64,000 nt of DNA from Candidatus Symbiothrix dinenymphae (GTDB lineage: Bacteria > Bacteroidota > Bacteroidia > Bacteroidales > Azobacteroidaceae). Below, piece by piece: positions 5,091 through 12,700 of this stretch. The first letter of the stretch is position 1. Each line of letters opens with the position of its first letter. A program made the translations under genes and the position numbers. The notes below the pieces were generated by a model. The model was not told where the DNA came from and did no database searches. It saw only the letters and a program-made list of their open reading frames with translations. The stretch spans positions 1-64,000 of the forward strand of contig BBRT01000001.1 of assembly GCA_001417715.1 (NCBI GenBank), in the 5' to 3' direction.

Positions 5091-6764
5091 ATGCAACACA
5101 CAGAAAATACAGTATTTGACAACAGATATCGCTTGATACGGCTGTTGGGGCGTGGGGGCTTTTCAGAAGTCTGGCTGGTGGAAGACACTAAAATCAATGC
5201 GCAGGCGGCGTTGAAAATCTATGCGCCGGGCACGGGTTTAGACACAGACGGGACTGCGCTGTTTAGGCAGGAATTTGCATTGGTCTTTAATCTCAATCAT
5301 GCTAATTTGTTGTGTCCAACACATTATGATGTGTATGAAAATCAGCCTTATCTGCTGATGCCATTTTGCGAAAAAGGGTCAGCTAAAAGGTTTGTGGGCA
5401 AAATTACTGAAGACCAAGCATGGCACTTTTTGCATGATGTGGCAGCCGGATTAGATTATCTTCATTCGCAAGAGCCGCCCATAATTCACCAAGATATTAA
5501 ACCGGACAATATCTTGTTGAATAGCAAAGGCGAGTTTTTAATCACCGATTTTGGCATCAGCACCAAAGCGAGAAACACGTTGAGCCAAAGTACAACCGAC
5601 ATTGCCAATGCCGGAACATTGGCATATATGGGATCCGAGCGGTTTGGAAAAGCCCCTCGTCCCATCAAAGCCAGCGATATATGGGCATTAGGCGCATCGG
5701 CATTTGAACTCATAACGGGAGATACCCCGTTTGGCGAGCATGGGGGATTGCTCTTGAAAGGCGGTGCCGAAGTACCGAATATTCAGACACCTTGTTCTGA
5801 GGTTCTGAAAGAGTTGGTTTACAAATGTTTATCTAAAGAAACTTGGGATAGACCTACAGCACACGATATTGTGGAGATGGCGGATAAGTGGTTTAGAGGG
5901 GAAAAACTTCTACCTGCCCCTTCAAGACCAACAACCCTCAAAACACCAACAACAAAGGAACCGAAACCGGAGCCAAAAAAGCGATATGGAACTATTTGGA
6001 TAGGGCTGATAATTTTGGGGTTGGGGGGAAGCGGTATCTATTATTATGCGAAACAAACCACATTGGAAAAAGCCCGACAAGAACAATTGGCTCGAGAAGA
6101 AAAAGCCCGACAGGAACAATTGGCACAAGAAGAAAGAGCATACAACTATGCTATTAAAGAAAATACCATAGCAGCGTGTGATGATTTTTTGAGGCACTAT
6201 CCGAACAGCGTGTATAAAAACGATATTATAGATAGAAAAAAACAAATTCCAATTTTTAGTTATGAAGTTGATGAATTTTTAGCTTATGAATGGCATGCGC
6301 AGAAAAAGATAAATCTTTTCGGTAATAGTGATTGTAGCAATACTGTGGGAACAATCACTGCGAATGAAACTTTTCGTATGGTGGAAAATAAATTGAGTTT
6401 TTATATGATTCCGGAAATTAGAATAACCAAAATTTATCCTAATGATTTTCCTGATTGTCCCTCAATGTTTCATGTAGGGGACATAATTAAACCTCTGTTT
6501 TATGTAGGAGAAGGATATTATCATGTATTACATAACGGACAAGTCCGCTATGCAGGATTCAGATATGATGCTAAAGATGCAAGCAAAGTGAACAGATCGC
6601 CTTATGATAGTTGTAATCCAATTGAAGGAATTGTAGTTCAAAGCAAAGGGAATCACATTCTCATTGCTAAAATTAAAACGTCTTCCGGACGTAGTGGATG
6701 GATAAAGATTGCCCATAATGATGAAAACTATACAAGTGATTGGGATAAATTAGTTCACTATTAA
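5091..6764 (+). CDS. Membrane Ser/Thr kinase, non-RD, with SH3-like tail, paralogue B
   Basis: 557 aa, the longest of the paralogues. The kinase domain (about 13-265) has the same GRGGFSEVW, HQDIKPDN and DFG motifs; the APE position reads GSE. One transmembrane helix (about 303-323) is followed by a Lys/Glu/Gln-rich repeat (KARQEQLA, twice), likely coiled coil. The ~180-residue tail contains Gly-Tyr-Tyr strands that look like a bacterial SH3-type beta domain; this is a weak call. The first 33 residues are the same as in the kinases at 6786 and 14794 and nearly so in DNA, showing recent duplication or gene conversion. Confidence 0.88.
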   Translation: MQHTENTVFDNRYRLIRLLGRGGFSEVWLVEDTKINAQAALKIYAPGTGLDTDGTALFRQEFALVFNLNHANLLCPTHYDVYENQPYLLMPFCEKGSAKRFVGKITEDQAWHFLHDVAAGLDYLHSQEPPIIHQDIKPDNILLNSKGEFLITDFGISTKARNTLSQSTTDIANAGTLAYMGSERFGKAPRPIKASDIWALGASAFELITGDTPFGEHGGLLLKGGAEVPNIQTPCSEVLKELVYKCLSKETWDRPTAHDIVEMADKWFRGEKLLPAPSRPTTLKTPTTKEPKPEPKKRYGTIWIGLIILGLGGSGIYYYAKQTTLEKARQEQLAREEKARQEQLAQEERAYNYAIKENTIAACDDFLRHYPNSVYKNDIIDRKKQIPIFSYEVDEFLAYEWHAQKKINLFGNSDCSNTVGTITANETFRMVENKLSFYMIPEIRITKIYPNDFPDCPSMFHVGDIIKPLFYVGEGYYHVLHNGQVRYAGFRYDAKDASKVNRSPYDSCNPIEGIVVQSKGNHILIAKIKTSSGRSGWIKIAHNDENYTSDWDKLVHY

Positions 6765-6785
6765 AAACAAATTTAGCGTAAAAGT

Positions 6786-8180
6786 ATGCAACACACAGAA
6801 AATACAGTATTTGACAACAGATATCGCTTGATACGGCTGTTGGGTCGCGGGGGCTTCTCGGAAGTCTGGCTGGTGGAAGACACTAAAATCGATGGTGCGC
6901 AGGCGGCGTTGAAAATCTATGCGCCGGGCACGGGCTTGGACACGAGTGGGACAAAACTGTTTAGTCAGGAATTTGCATTGGTGTTTGACCTCAACCACAC
7001 CAATTTGCTGCGCCCAACGCATTTCGATGTCTATGACAATCAGCCCTATTTGCTGATGCCATATTGCGAAAAAGGCTCGGCAAAACAGTTTGTGGGCAGC
7101 ATCACGGAGGCGCAAGCATGGCATTTTTTGCACGATGTGGCGGCCGGATTGGAGTATCTTCATTCGCAAGAGCCGCCCGTGATTCACCAGGACATTAAAC
7201 CAGACAATATCTTGCTAAACAGCAAAGGCGTGTTTTTAATCACCGATTTTGGCATCAGCACCAAAGCACGGAGCACGTTGCGCCGAAGTGTCACCAACGC
7301 CAATGCCGGGACAGTGGCGTATATGCCGCCGGAACGGTTTAGTGAAGATAATCGCCCCATCAGAGCCAGCGATGTGTGGGCATTAGGCGTATCCGTGTTT
7401 GAACTAATAACGGGAGATGTGCCATTCGAGCAAGGCGGATTGTTTCAGAAAGCAGGTGCCGCAATACCCCGTATTCAAACATCGTATTCTGCACCGCTGA
7501 AAGAGTTGGTTTACAAATGCTTATCTAAAGAAACATGGGATAGACCTACTGCGGGTGATATTGTGGGGATGGCGGATAAGTGGTTTAGAGGGGAAAAGGT
7601 GGATGGTGCTGCAAAGCCTAAACCAAAGCCAAAGCCGGAAATAGAACGGAAAACTCAACGAAAGGTTGATGAGCCAAAAGGTAAAGGAAAAATTGATTTT
7701 TTTAAATCTTCCATAAATGCTAATACATCGGCAGGACCTATTATGGTTACTTTTTCATGGAAAACATCAAACTTATCTTATGTTTGGCTTGAATTTTTGG
7801 ATAAGACAGGTAAATGCTCGCGTACTTTATTTAAGCGATATAATTTATCCAGAGAAGGGAGTATTGACATAGAAATTAATTTTTGGCATGATATTGAAGT
7901 TGAGTTACATGCTAAAAGTATCACTCGGGTTGACGACTACTGCGTTGAACGCATCGTGATTAAAGATGAGCGTCCAAGACCGACTAAAGTTAAGATGCAA
8001 AATGGCTGTCTTTTTGCGTTCTGTGGATCCCTGCTGTACGTGGGGATAGCGAATCTATGTGTATTTCTTGGGCTAATAAATGACAGCATATCTATTATAG
8101 AAGACGGTGTAATAATGATAATTTCCCTCATTGCAGTGTTTTGTATTGGATATTCGCTGACCAATAAATTAAAACTATAA
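6786..8180 (+). CDS. Membrane Ser/Thr kinase, non-RD, paralogue C
   Basis: 464 aa. The kinase domain (about 13-270) has Lys43, HQDIKPDN and DFG; the APE position is PPE. The linker matches the kinase at 2604 (GEKVDGAAKPK...IERKTQRK), while the N-terminus matches those at 5091 and 14794, so the gene is a mosaic. A ~90-residue beta-rich domain (about 305-395) precedes two transmembrane helices (about 405-430 and 438-458). The beta domain is therefore on the cytoplasmic side if the helices form a hairpin, unlike paralogues A and B. The stop lies 4 bp before the next ATG, indicating translational coupling. Confidence 0.88.
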   Translation: MQHTENTVFDNRYRLIRLLGRGGFSEVWLVEDTKIDGAQAALKIYAPGTGLDTSGTKLFSQEFALVFDLNHTNLLRPTHFDVYDNQPYLLMPYCEKGSAKQFVGSITEAQAWHFLHDVAAGLEYLHSQEPPVIHQDIKPDNILLNSKGVFLITDFGISTKARSTLRRSVTNANAGTVAYMPPERFSEDNRPIRASDVWALGVSVFELITGDVPFEQGGLFQKAGAAIPRIQTSYSAPLKELVYKCLSKETWDRPTAGDIVGMADKWFRGEKVDGAAKPKPKPKPEIERKTQRKVDEPKGKGKIDFFKSSINANTSAGPIMVTFSWKTSNLSYVWLEFLDKTGKCSRTLFKRYNLSREGSIDIEINFWHDIEVELHAKSITRVDDYCVERIVIKDERPRPTKVKMQNGCLFAFCGSLLYVGIANLCVFLGLINDSISIIEDGVIMIISLIAVFCIGYSLTNKLKL

Positions 8181-9294: not shown

Positions 9295-9364
9295 ATGCAA
9301 CAAACAGAAATATATAAAAGACCACTATTAGGCTCCGCCTTCGGCGGTGGCGGCAGGCAATTTC
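9295..9364 (+). pseudogene. Duplicated 5' end of the FHA-protease gene
   Basis: Starting at ATG 9298 is run-on coding sequence for MQQTEIYKRPLL-GSAFGGGGRQ. It closely matches the first residues of the FHA-protease gene at 11228 (MQQAQTYKRTL...GSVFGGGGRQ), with about six codons missing in the middle. The similarity stops where the palindromic block begins at 9368. It is a remnant or partial duplication of the protease gene start, left on the far side of the AbiE insertion. The frame happens to stay open into abiEi, giving a spurious longer ORF. Confidence 0.75.
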
Positions 9365-9367
9365 TAC

Positions 9368-9533
9368 GCCATTCCGTTAGGAATGGCTCGCTCGGTAGAA
9401 AGAGCAACATTCCCCTAACCCCTGCATTCCGTAGGAATGCAACCGGTGCGATAGCGGTCGCATCCCTACGGGATGCGGGTTTGGGGCGTGTGGTTGCTGT
9501 TTCTACCGAGCGATTCATCCCTAATGGGATGAA
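9368..9533. repeat. BIME-like block: four short palindromes and a 20-bp inverted repeat
   Basis: Four hairpins with related but different stems: GCCATTCC-gtta-GGAATGGC (9368-9387), TGCATTCC-gta-GGAATGCA (9423-9441), CGCATCCC-tac-GGGATGCG (9459-9477) and TTCATCCC-taat-GGGATGAA (9514-9533). A 20-bp inverted repeat (9389-9408 and 9493-9512, one mismatch) encloses the two central hairpins, so the block could extrude as one large cruciform. It lies between the duplicated protease-gene start and the abiEi operator array. Confidence 0.85.
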
Positions 9534-9549
9534 AAATGGGGTCAAAACA

Positions 9550-9756
9550 ACCGCTAATTTTCAAAAGAGCGGTGATTTTGTGCCCGAAAATGAGAATGGA
9601 ATATGGCACAAAAACACGGTACTTATCCACAAATACCGTAACTTTGTGCCAAAAATGGGGTCAAAACAACTGCTTATTTCAATAAAAGCAGTGATTTTGT
9701 ACCCGAAAATGAAAAGCAAATGGCACAAAACTACGGCTAATTCAAATAAAAGCCGT
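9550..9756. repeat. Four tandem hairpins with co-varying 6-bp arms upstream of abiEi
   Basis: Four perfect inverted repeats, each with 6-bp arms and exactly 12 nt between them: ACCGCT/AGCGGT (9550-9573), ACGGTA/TACCGT (9616-9639), ACTGCT/AGCAGT (9669-9692) and ACGGCT/AGCCGT (9733-9756). The arms differ between copies but always stay complementary. Units 1 and 3 are followed by gattttgt.cccgaaaatga, units 2 and 4 by aactttgtgcca, so the array is a duplicated ~120-bp pair. TAACTTTG boxes overlap the ends of units 2 and 4. This could be the operator of AbiEi, which in characterised systems represses its own promoter by binding inverted repeats. Confidence 0.85.
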
Positions 9757-9763
9757 AACTTTG
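9756..9763 (+). promoter_or_regulatory. Predicted abiEi promoter (-7 TAACTTTG)
   Basis: TAACTTTG overlaps the last base of the fourth inverted repeat and lies 14 bp before ATG 9778. An equivalent box lies at 9639-9646 after hairpin 2. A repressor or structure at the repeat would directly occlude it. Confidence 0.5.
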
Positions 9764-9777
9764 TGCCAAAAAAAAGA

Positions 9778-10356
9778 ATGAATGATTTGATAAACATATT
9801 TAATGAAAATTCAGGTTTTCTGAAATCAAAAGACATTATAAGCAGAACGCAATGGCGCAATTTGGCTAAAATGTTGAATGAAAACTTGGTATATAAAGTC
9901 AAGAGAGGGCTTTATCGTTTGAGTGATTATGATGCAGACCAACTTACAGATGTTTCAAACATAATCCCTGACGGCGTTTTGTGTCTGTTTTCGGCATGGT
10001 TTCACTATGAACTTACAACAACAATTCCTCATTCTTACTATATTGCCATTGAGAAGAAGCGAAAAATAGTGTTGCCGGACTATCCGCCAATTAAGTTGCA
10101 TTATTGGCAGAAAAATCAATATGATTTGGGCATTTCCACATACACGAAAGATGGTATCGTGATAAAAATTTACGACATTGAAAAATCAGTATGCGATGCG
10201 GTGAAGTTTCGCAATAAAACAGGAATTGATATTGCCGCCGAAGTGTTGAAAAATTACTTGCACCGACAAGACCGCAACCTCACTAAATTGGTGAGTTATG
10301 CCCGACAACTGAGAATAGAAAAGATTTTGAGAACTTATTTGGAAGTAGAACTATGA
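9778..10356 (+). CDS. abiEi: AbiEi-type antitoxin / transcriptional regulator
   Basis: 192 aa from ATG 9778; the frame is open further upstream only through the repeat block and the duplicated protease-gene start. The N-terminal ~60 residues form a winged-helix-like region (MNDLINIFNENSGFLKSKDI, then VYKVKRGLYRL), as in type IV antitoxins that repress their own operon. The C-terminal part carries the SYYIAIEKKRK and DIEKSVCDAVKFRNK motifs of the AbiEi family. The stop overlaps the start of the next gene by 4 bp (ATGA), typical of a toxin-antitoxin pair. It interrupts the kinase cluster and is an acquired defence or stability module. Confidence 0.85.
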   Translation: MNDLINIFNENSGFLKSKDIISRTQWRNLAKMLNENLVYKVKRGLYRLSDYDADQLTDVSNIIPDGVLCLFSAWFHYELTTTIPHSYYIAIEKKRKIVLPDYPPIKLHYWQKNQYDLGISTYTKDGIVIKIYDIEKSVCDAVKFRNKTGIDIAAEVLKNYLHRQDRNLTKLVSYARQLRIEKILRTYLEVEL

Positions 10357-11222
10357 CAAAAGAAATAGCAAAATCAATTAAAGCGCGGCTTTTGAATATT
10401 GCGCAAAAAGAAAATCTGAACAATCAGCAACTGACTGTTAGATATTTATTTGAGAGAGTATTGTATCGCTTGTCTGTCAGCAAGTTCAAGGACAGGTTTT
10501 GTTTGAAAGGCGGCACTCTACTTTATGCACTTGCAAAAGATATGCCTCGTCCAACGTTGGATATTGACTTTTTGGGGATAAATCTTTCAAATGAAATTGT
10601 ATTTATCAAAAAGGCGTTTACCGAAATTCTTTCAATCAAGTGTAATGAAGATGGTATTGTTTTTGAAATAGCCTCTATTGAGGCAAAAGAACTTACAGGT
10701 AATAAGTTATATGCTGGTATCAGGGTTTCTTTTGTTGCATTGCTGGATACTTTCAAACAAGCGATGCAAATTGACATTGGTTTTGGCGATGTGATAACAC
10801 CTGCACCCCAAAATTTGCGTTATCCTGTGTTTTTTGACGAACTGCCGACACCCGAAATTCTTGTCTATTCGCTCGAAACCATAGTAGCAGAAAAATTTCA
10901 TGCAATGATTGAGCGGTCGGATACAAACAGCCGTTACAAGGATTTTTATGATGTATATAAAATTTTCACAACGCAAAAAATAGACGATAATGTATTGGGT
11001 GCAGCCATAAGAGCAACATTTCAAAATCGCAAAACGGGTTATCAAAATAATCATCCGCTGTTTACCGATGAATTTTCCACAGAGAAAAACCGTACAACCC
11101 AATGGCGAAATTTTCTACGCAAGATAAAACAGGATGACGATTTGAGTTTTGAGACCGTTATGACAGTGATTAGCAAGAAATTGCAACCCATTTTTGAAAC
11201 ATTAAAACAATTAAAAACATAA
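10353..11222 (+). CDS. abiEii: AbiEii-type nucleotidyltransferase toxin
   Basis: 289 aa. The nucleotidyltransferase core has LKGGTLLYAL followed by TLDIDFLG (the GG...DxD signature, about residues 50-72). The family motif ETIVAEKFHAMIERSDTNSR-KDFYDVY appears at about 178-202. Characterised AbiEii enzymes transfer nucleotides and block growth, for example during phage infection, and AbiEi neutralises them. The gene is intact and coupled to abiEi. The downstream kinase-cluster gene begins only 5 bp after its stop, so the insertion boundary is very tight. Confidence 0.88.
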   Translation: MTKEIAKSIKARLLNIAQKENLNNQQLTVRYLFERVLYRLSVSKFKDRFCLKGGTLLYALAKDMPRPTLDIDFLGINLSNEIVFIKKAFTEILSIKCNEDGIVFEIASIEAKELTGNKLYAGIRVSFVALLDTFKQAMQIDIGFGDVITPAPQNLRYPVFFDELPTPEILVYSLETIVAEKFHAMIERSDTNSRYKDFYDVYKIFTTQKIDDNVLGAAIRATFQNRKTGYQNNHPLFTDEFSTEKNRTTQWRNFLRKIKQDDDLSFETVMTVISKKLQPIFETLKQLKT

Positions 11223-11227
11223 AAGAT

Positions 11228-12700
11228 ATGCAACAAGCACAAACGTACAAACGCACATTATCCGGCTCAGTGGGTGCCGGATTAGGCTCTGTCTTCGGCG
11301 GCGGGGGCAGGCAGTATTACATTTTGGAGCACAAAATCAGTTCCAAATACCACCGTGTGGGCGACAATCAGGAGATTATTGTTGACCAGGTTGAAATTGG
11401 GCGCGACCCTAAGTGTCAGGTGCGCTTCGATGAGTCGTTTAAGACCGTCAGTCGGCGACATGCGGCGATTGAGAAAGACGGCGACAAGTGGAAACTTGTG
11501 CAGTTGTCGGCGACCAATCCCACGTTTTTGAATGGCAATCCGGTCAAGCGCGAATGGTATTTGCAAAATGGCGATGAAATTCAGTTGTCCACCGGCGGTC
11601 CCAAACTGGGTTTTCTCATTCCGGCGGGCAAAACTACAGGGACTTTGGGCTTCACGCACCGTTTGAGTTTGTTTGGCAAACAGGCACTTCGCCCCTATAA
11701 GCAGGCTGTAACGCTGCTTTCGCTATTCCTGCTGCTGGCAATCGGCGGTGGCGGTTATGCTATTTTGCATCAGCAGAGCATTATAGGCGAGACTCAAATC
11801 GGACTTACAAAAGTGATTGAAGAGAATAAATCGCTGAAAAAAATGGTGAAAGACACAGAAGACAAGCGGGTGCAAGATTCTATCCGAGTGGCAAATCTCC
11901 CCAAACCGGTTCCGCCACCACCTGCAATCCACAACTTGATTGCGGCGGTTAAAAAGGATATTTATTTCATTGAAACACGTGCATTTATGCAGGATAACGC
12001 AGGGACGCAAAAATTGGCAACCTCTTATGGCACAGGTTTTGTGCTTCAAGACGGCACTTTTGTGACGGCTCGCCATTGCGTGGAAACGTGGCTATTTGAT
12101 ATGTCAGAAGAATCCGTCCGTGCCAATGCCAATGCAACCACCTACTCGACTGAATATAAAGTCTATTCGGAGGTGCGGGCTTACAACAAAAGCGGGCTGC
12201 AATTTACCTTAAAGAGTGCTGATTTTAAAATCAACCGCAGTAGCGATGTTATCAAGCAGATTGGCGTTGACGAAAATAATCAGCCCATTCACTTCCAATT
12301 TGCTTTTCCGAACGCTTTCAAGGAGAAAACGATAGGCTCGCCAAGCATGCTTGCGCACGATTGGGCGGTGGCGCGTGTTTCTCAGTCTTCATCGTTGAAT
12401 GCTGATTATGAGGCTTCTACATCGTTGCGCACGGGCGAAGAAATCCACATTTTGGGCTTTCCGGATGGCTATGGCGTCAATGACGGCAAGGCATTGGTGG
12501 AGCCTATCTACAACAAAATGTCGGTTTCGCGTGATGGTTTGGATAATGCGGGTTGCATCATGACCTCTTCGGGTGTCAATCATGGCAATTCGGGCGGTCC
12601 CGTTTTTGCATTGCGGGGCGGCAAGTTGGTTGTGGTTGGTATTGTGTCGCGAGGGAGTTCTTATGACCATGCTGTGCCTATTTCACAAATTAAAAATTAA
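11228..12700 (+). CDS. FHA-transmembrane-trypsin-like serine protease
   Basis: 490 aa. An N-terminal Gly-rich segment precedes a cytoplasmic FHA domain (about 38-135; GRDPKCQVRFD, SRRHA, NPTFLNG). One transmembrane helix follows (about 157-180, VTLLSLFLLLAIGGGGYAIL), then a periplasmic trypsin-like protease. The triad is visible: His in GTGFVLQDGTFVTARHC, Asp in AHDWAVARV and Ser in NHGNSGGPVF. The FHA domain would let cytoplasmic Thr phosphorylation by the cluster kinases recruit or control a protease across the membrane (inference). The start of the gene is partly duplicated at 9298, across the AbiE insertion. Confidence 0.9.
   Translation: MQQAQTYKRTLSGSVGAGLGSVFGGGGRQYYILEHKISSKYHRVGDNQEIIVDQVEIGRDPKCQVRFDESFKTVSRRHAAIEKDGDKWKLVQLSATNPTFLNGNPVKREWYLQNGDEIQLSTGGPKLGFLIPAGKTTGTLGFTHRLSLFGKQALRPYKQAVTLLSLFLLLAIGGGGYAILHQQSIIGETQIGLTKVIEENKSLKKMVKDTEDKRVQDSIRVANLPKPVPPPPAIHNLIAAVKKDIYFIETRAFMQDNAGTQKLATSYGTGFVLQDGTFVTARHCVETWLFDMSEESVRANANATTYSTEYKVYSEVRAYNKSGLQFTLKSADFKINRSSDVIKQIGVDENNQPIHFQFAFPNAFKEKTIGSPSMLAHDWAVARVSQSSSLNADYEASTSLRTGEEIHILGFPDGYGVNDGKALVEPIYNKMSVSRDGLDNAGCIMTSSGVNHGNSGGPVFALRGGKLVVVGIVSRGSSYDHAVPISQIKN

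Follow-up and report, generated by a model that had tools for sequence, protein, structure and literature searches.

In Streptococcus agalactiae, the abiE operator is described as two 23-bp inverted repeats, TGTTGCTTTTATACCACAAATAT-N3-AAAATTGTAGTGTAAAAGCAACA, with each repeat bound by AbiEi in gel shifts (PMC3985639). The rv2827c promoter of Mycobacterium tuberculosis is described as containing four 23-bp repeats, arranged in two pairs, with differing affinities for Rv2827c (PMC7319586). The -7 consensus TAnnTTTG was deduced in B. fragilis and, according to the same account, was also seen in another member of the Bacteroidetes (PMC7366714). A literature search, judged in part by titles and abstract openings, yielded no paper on AbiE operators in Bacteroidota. 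The type of operator is known; what appears to be new, as predicted here from the DNA, is an AbiEi operator array of four symmetric, mutually different units.

In the window (the whole stretch of DNA analysed, 64,000 nucleotides), the region at 9550-9756 is best explained as the control region of an AbiE-type toxin-antitoxin operon. An earlier note had claimed four inverted repeats with 6-bp arms, a 12-nt spacing and differing arm sequences in this region, and these are indeed present, beyond chance as judged by shuffles; the boxes that it had placed over the second and fourth units were found as well. The features are as follows.

9532-9768, plus strand: tandem duplication, block U1-U2 copied as U3-U4, copies 119 and 117 bp apart
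9538-9585, plus strand: unit 1 (U1), inner hexamers ACCGCT (9550-9555) and AGCGGT (9568-9573)
9604-9651, plus strand: unit 2 (U2), inner hexamers ACGGTA (9616-9621) and TACCGT (9634-9639), outer arms TGGCACAAA and TTTGTGCCA
9639-9646, plus strand: TAACTTTG, -7 box in the right arm of U2, fitting the Bacteroidota -7 consensus TAnnTTTG
9657-9704, plus strand: unit 3 (U3), inner hexamers ACTGCT (9669-9674) and AGCAGT (9687-9692), duplicate of U1
9721-9768, plus strand: unit 4 (U4), inner hexamers ACGGCT (9733-9738) and AGCCGT (9751-9756), closest to the gene, duplicate of U2
9756-9763, plus strand: TAACTTTG, -7 box in the right arm of U4, same consensus, 14 bp upstream of the abiEi ATG
9778-10356, plus strand: abiEi, AbiEi-family antitoxin/repressor of 192 aa, ATG at 9778, PADLOC AbiEi 5.7e-57
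10353-11222, plus strand: abiEii, AbiEii-family nucleotidyltransferase toxin of 289 aa, PF08843 3.1e-50, PDB 9hlo_B AbiGII 6.9e-34

The perfect 6/12/6 inverted repeats start at 9550, 9616, 9669 and 9733, each with a different arm sequence. Other spacings from 6 to 19, scanned over 9500-9800, gave one perfect repeat or none apiece. The window has 45 perfect 6/12/6 repeats, and only at the array do four starts fall within 186 bases. Dinucleotide shuffles of 9550-9756 (5,000) gave a mean of 0.08 perfect units and a maximum of 2, compared to an observed count of 3 in that scan, whose loop bound missed the last unit, hence 3 rather than four. Each 6-bp arm forms the inner portion of a longer half-site (18 bp) that also has an outer arm, so each unit is a 48-bp near-palindrome; the matching arms of the units are 18-23 nt long. 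The outer arm reads GGCACAAA in U2 and U4 and GGG..CAAAA, with left and right unequal, in U1 and U3, and is largely conserved inside each of these unit classes. An AbiEi operator is expected to have inverted repeats that measure about 23 bp, lie a few bp apart and overlap a promoter; we found 48-bp units with a -7 consensus in U2 and U4 and none in U1 and U3. The unit centres are 66, 53 and 64 bp apart, or 6.3, 5.0 and 6.1 helical turns at 10.5 bp a turn, so that all units may lie on roughly the same face of the DNA. The stretch immediately before the array, 9331-9535, has GC-rich nested palindromes (25-nt arms at 9421-9445 and 9455-9479, 84% complementary, plus smaller ones) that look like REP-type repeats.

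Duplication of a two-unit block best explains how the array arose; U1-U2 and U3-U4 being one duplicated block, the four units are not four independent events. Between the block copies there are 24 substitutions, of which six are in hexamers and form three matched pairs (one position between U1 and U3, two between U2 and U4); there were zero single-arm hexamer changes, and the loops differ freely. U1 and U3 are 86% identical over 65 nt. Judged by the consensus, the -7 box in U4 is likely to be the promoter of the abiE operon. The corresponding box in the right arm of U1, TGATTTTG, is not a consensus -7 box, and both U1 and U3 have TG where TA is expected.

An abiEi-family antitoxin gene followed by an abiEii nucleotidyltransferase gene is the gene order expected of an AbiE type IV toxin-antitoxin operon, a type in which the toxin is expected to inhibit growth and the antitoxin to counteract it without direct contact. 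The start of abiEii overlaps the end of abiEi by 4 bp, and we infer that the two are co-transcribed as one operon. Among PDB entries searched with phmmer, the abiEi product matched 6y8q ("Abortive phage infection protein") and 9hlo_A (AbiGI), each at 5e-16. In Pfam it matched AbiEi_4 alone, at 0.011 and under the family cut-off, and NCBIfam had no family for the product of either gene. A 353-aa open frame at 9295-10356 runs across the array in frame with abiEi; it was not accepted as coding because the block copies are 119 and 117 bp apart and so not in the same reading frame throughout.

We conclude that 9538-9768 very probably comprises four tandem operators for the operon's own repressor, AbiEi. 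From outside to inside, each half-site consists of a 6-bp block whose sequence changes from locus to locus, then AAA-nn-T and AC, and last a 4-bp block (h3-h6), which is variable between loci and units. One AbiEi monomer would bind per half-site, two per unit and eight in total. Since the -7 box TAACTTTG lies within the right half-site in both U2 and U4, bound AbiEi would block RNA polymerase; U1 and U3, without a -7 box, could have an auxiliary role, either increasing the occupancy of AbiEi nearby or making the response graded. That repression is graded through unequal units is a guess by analogy with rv2827c. Selection for matched half-sites would be the cause of the covariation between arms. 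Recognition of the arrangement by AbiEi, one of the options that the earlier note had offered, is the best reading, given that the proven operator of S. agalactiae is built in the same way.

Indeed, the S. agalactiae operator, as described in PMC3985639, has a total length of 49 bp versus 48 bp here, an outer palindromic block, an AT-rich stretch and inner AC[CT]ACA hexamers in the same register, overlaps a promoter and adjoins abiEi-abiEii. It contains ACCACA-N13-TGTAGT, the same inner element and register as the Bacteroidales half-sites. With a matrix of 54 Bacteroidales half-sites, both S. agalactiae half-sites scored best in the expected register of the six tried, with shuffle p values of 0.003 and 0.006 (0.001 and 0.003 for o1-h6 alone). 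The absolute scores were low (2.1 and 0.3 bits over 18 columns, versus a training median of 16.6 over 19 columns) because the outer block is different. Unlike the array, S. agalactiae is described with one operator, with 13 rather than 12 nt between the hexamers and with h3 mismatched; its promoter is a putative -35/-10 promoter, whereas the boxes here follow TAnnTTTG (PMC3985639). The C/T mismatch at h3 means that symmetry is not strictly needed for binding. Like the array, the rv2827c promoter, in the description given in PMC7319586, has multiple repeat pairs upstream of the gene for an AbiEi-like antitoxin, with repeats unequal in sequence; it differs in having two pairs, a 13-bp gap within pairs and negatively cooperative binding. 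A second array, at an abiEi gene of the same genus (L060), has three units above the unbiased cut described below, with cores ACTGC, ACCACA and ACCGC, and its first two units are 53 bp apart, as are U2 and U3; it differs in a fourth, degenerate unit, placed by eye, and in an h6 mismatch in two of three pairs.

AbiEi loci were taken from GTDB contigs (11 loci), from genomes of the same order (matches in 126 of 295 at E <= 0.001, with the best loci only fetched, and in 21 of 393 at E <= 1e-25), from chosen families (8 of 45, 8 of 18, 5 of 43, 12 of 129, 1 of 12 and 2 of 16 genomes with a match, some genomes recurring between searches) and from viral contigs (one locus, L055). The class-wide search gave no close AbiEi except the window's own (1/395); an earlier class-wide search with a single protein had given that AbiEi and two distant ones (3/395). 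Three groups of loci were left out beforehand: L012-L014, which are the window once more; L015-L016 and L034-L046, whose AbiEi are distant, with E values from 1e-4 to 1e-19; and, as far as fetched, the plasmid loci L047-L049, which were judged by eye only. Of the 62 close loci analysed, two duplicate others over 120 nt upstream (L058 = L001, L006 = L005), leaving 60; the genome of L058, whose upstream DNA is identical to that of L001, belongs to the family of the window.

The earlier note had staked its claim on a search of other genomes and a test of covariation; the outcome that it had named as adverse did not occur, and the pattern recurs. Upstream of the close AbiEi loci we found 33 perfect AC-hexamer N12 units in 28 of 60 loci, compared to 0.5 expected from single-base shuffles; the 33 include the window's four, a near-copy and those of six closely related loci, and the 60 include the window's own locus. 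The other 32 loci had no perfect unit, and two of these have almost no upstream DNA. Unbiased scoring used the outer 13 positions and AC only, so that hexamer positions 3-6 were unused in selection. The best score was at least 13 in 22 of the 60 loci scored and in 5 of 300 shuffles; this spacing scan kept L058 and L006 and left unscored two loci with too little upstream DNA, which again makes 60. With spacings of 11-14 allowed, 20 of the 22 best-scoring loci had a spacing of 12, the exceptions being L056 (13, inner GCTAAC) and L062 (14), the latter unit probably due to chance. A cut of 12 with AC on both arms and a spacing of 12 gave 29 units versus 0.45 expected. Positions were counted on 28 units, with L069, a near-copy of L024, dropped and L051 (-252) kept; the unit at -252 is probably chance, and L051 and L069 were both dropped for the letter and matrix analyses, which used 27 units or 54 half-sites. 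A scan that picked units partly by hexamer match was excluded from the statistics. The right arm contained exact TAnnTTTG in 15 of the 27 units and none exact in 12. The candidate half-site code for Bacteroidales thus reads variable block, AAAnnTAC (which holds the complement of the -7 box), variable block; it joins these sites to the proven Streptococcus operator and should therefore make AbiE operators in Bacteroidales predictable and testable.

That the arms covary, as the earlier note had claimed, was borne out both by the three matched hexamer pairs between the block copies and by the arm agreement among the 28 units, which was 26 at h3, 27 at h4, 24 at h5 and 20 at h6, compared to 9.5, 15.6, 15.7 and 10.0 expected. 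In the outer block (o12-o7), agreement was 20-25 of 28 versus 7.0-13.4 expected, a value inflated since these positions entered selection. Each position of h3-h6 and o12-o7 gave p <= 0.0015 in a permutation that ignores relatedness. At nn (o3 and o2), positions also used in selection, agreement was 13/28 and 8/28 versus 9.3 and 6.6 expected (p 0.11 and 0.33), and loop positions agreed at chance level in the 28 units. Matched blocks with uncoupled nn are the pattern of contact blocks. The assumption of the earlier note that a simple protein operator would conserve the arm sequence found no support: across loci, both blocks vary while remaining mostly symmetric.

Changes were also counted on a tree of the AbiEi proteins from 22 loci (L051 dropped, L069 kept), which was built with FastTree and rooted at the midpoint, with changes placed by Fitch assignment. 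Branches with concerted and single-arm changes numbered, respectively, 5 and 4 at h3, 4 and 0 at h4, 1 and 4 at h5, and 2 and 10 at h6 in the inner block, and 1 and 6 at o12, 1 and 3 at o11, 2 and 3 at o10, 6 and 1 at o9, 2 and 0 at o8, and 4 and 6 at o7 in the outer block. The counts were 1 and 15 at o3, 0 and 15 at o2, 1 and 1 at o1, and 2 and 51 for six loop positions together. At o13, o12, o11, o4, o2, h5, h6 and loop positions 1, 3 and 4, there was one branch each on which the two arms changed differently. Single-arm changes therefore equal or outnumber concerted ones at o12-o10, o7, o1, h5 and h6 on this tree. At h3, h4, o8 and o9 the coupling is clear; at the remaining positions of both blocks it is weak, and in nn and the loop it is absent.

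Within arrays, the actual pairing of arms was the best of all permutations in the window (16/16, 1 of 24), in L060 (10/12, 1 of 6) and in L055 (8/8, 1 of 2), a product of 1 in 288, or 1 in 144 without the second unit of L055, which, at -149 and without AAA, may not be an operator. That second unit has the hexamer ACGGAG, as do six related loci (L029, L076-L079 and L082) in which ACGGAG-N12-CTCCGT lies at about -106 relative to the start and precedes the apparent -7 box rather than covering it. L071 has two perfect units with different hexamers, found in the scan that used the hexamer. That the units of one array all differ may be chance. A correlation of AbiEi residues with hexamer letters over 21 loci gave top columns that were scattered and mostly outside residues 20-50. 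L002 and L060 have different hexamers and 23 of 31 residues in common in AbiEi 20-50, too few to infer one shared reading surface.

If the units were DNA or RNA hairpins or cruciforms, the arms would covary through pairing, and AbiEi or another factor would read the fold. Indeed, the single strand of the array folds far more stably than shuffles do (z -8.7 as DNA, -8.1 as RNA), the arms change together in one array under one protein, and concerted branches were found at h3 (5 concerted, 4 single) and h4 (4, 0). A stem, however, should pair throughout, but nn between the blocks is without significant pairing (13/28, 8/28), so covariation does not extend over the whole stem; nor would a hairpin require the spacing to stay at 12, as it mostly does. 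The letters are restricted as well: in the 54 half-sites h3 is without A, h4 is only G or A and h5 is without G, which fits reading by a protein and not pairing alone, since pairing would allow A at h3 and C or T at h4 (an orphan unit, L095, does have A at h3). Among the 11 mismatches in h3-h6 of the 27 units, the T.G wobble on the sense strand accounts for only 1, and C.A or A.C for 5. An RNA hairpin is a poor fit because the likely promoter lies inside the right arm: in the 15 of 27 units with the -7 box there, a transcript from that box would start past that hairpin, although U3-U4 could lie in a transcript from the U2 box. We therefore regard folded units as improbable, and an independent structured element with its own activity, the other option of the earlier note, is possible but not needed. 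Rfam gave five weak matches, none at gathering score, the best being a microRNA family on the minus strand (E 6e-4, 27 of 245 bits), and on this result a known RNA family was rejected as the identity of the array. Template switching, the non-selective alternative of the earlier note, would have copied one arm onto the other; such switching is known to turn imperfect palindromes into perfect ones, and the hexamer arms here do match perfectly. Copying would match nn too, but nn (o3 and o2) changed in one arm on 30 branches and together on 1, and the outer arms of U1 and U3 stay unequal. Because nn is uncoupled, template switching is a poor fit and, in our view, very improbable.

The units could also be relic operators of earlier AbiEi proteins, with only U4, perhaps U2, serving the present AbiEi, a reading that is compatible with operators for AbiEi in general. 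U1 is close to the operator of L001, with which it shares the left hexamer and 11 of 12 loop positions, and in U1 and U3 the TA of the -7 box is missing and the outer arms are unequal. However, the duplicates U1/U3 and U2/U4 differ in their hexamers only by matched pairs, so symmetry was kept within the array unless the copies came from units that already differed, and the identity of U1 and U3 suggests upkeep or youth rather than decay; relics are rather unlikely. Exceedingly improbable is a dispersed repeat, a REP- or MITE-like hairpin that happens to precede abiEi. The REP-like palindromes at 9331-9535 just upstream, one U2-like unit elsewhere in the same genome (L095) and a weak match that lies away from any abiEi gene in another genome (L092) would agree with it. 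In its own genome, however, the pattern TGGCACAAA-N20-32-TTTGTGCCA occurs only at U2 and U4 and the array DNA matches only itself and L095; in four of five other genomes matched the site is the abiEi locus, and units elsewhere precede abiEi genes.

Four tandem AbiEi operators thus remain the preferred reading, and one protein serves all units, yet the arms inside one array differ between units. Additive reading by a protein alone does not force both arms to change together. The two inner blocks could be selected for identity beyond the specificity of one protein, the arms being compared with each other; the means of comparison could be extrusion or hairpin pairing while repression or replication takes place, or else an AbiEi dimer that is non-additive and requires equal half-sites. 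This is doubtful, and we keep it in consideration because one protein reading all four units would tolerate several hexamers, and additive reading would then leave nothing that keeps the arms equal. If true, one array could hold several orthogonal, individually matched operators. Units that differ and yet are symmetric raise the question of whether equality of the half-sites can be required by a repressor that leaves their sequence free.

The orphan U2-like unit L095 (G000:C337:35323-35367 of the same genome) has its hexamers at 1517-1540 on the minus strand, with ACAGTA-N12-TACTGT followed by AACTTTGTGCC. No AbiEi-like ORF was seen in the 3 kb around it. The unit adjoins an ORF with HTH_38 and a sub-threshold rve match, which we take to be IS30-like, and two ORFs further up (181-435 and 747-1001) are presumably RelE-like. 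DNA similar to L095 in L092 also abuts a GTAACTTTGTGCC site, and an insertion sequence may favour such sites.

The genome has five further AbiEi paralogs (L084-L088), and a general inverted-repeat scan upstream of them found nothing strong at three and other palindromes at two. The latter, L086 and L088, have long imperfect palindromes of different sequence, with 26-nt arms at about -123 in one case and 25-nt arms at about -155 in the other, which are perhaps operators of other AbiEi subfamilies. In L076, a perfect ACTGCA-N12-TGCAGT at 2956-2979 lies directly behind the apparent abiEii stop codon, as it does in L078 and L079. Around abiE in the window, the first residues of the 9295 frame (MQQTEIYKRPLLGSAFGGGGRQ) are similar to the start of the ORF at 11228-12700 after abiE (MQQAQTYKRTLSGSVGAGLGSVFGGGGRQ), as if the abiE module lay between two copies of one gene start. 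The ORFs after abiE that start at 11228 and 13568 are, by motif, presumably FHA-like and PP2C-like, and two adjacent ORFs at 5091-8180, with beginnings almost alike, we take to be kinase-like by motif.
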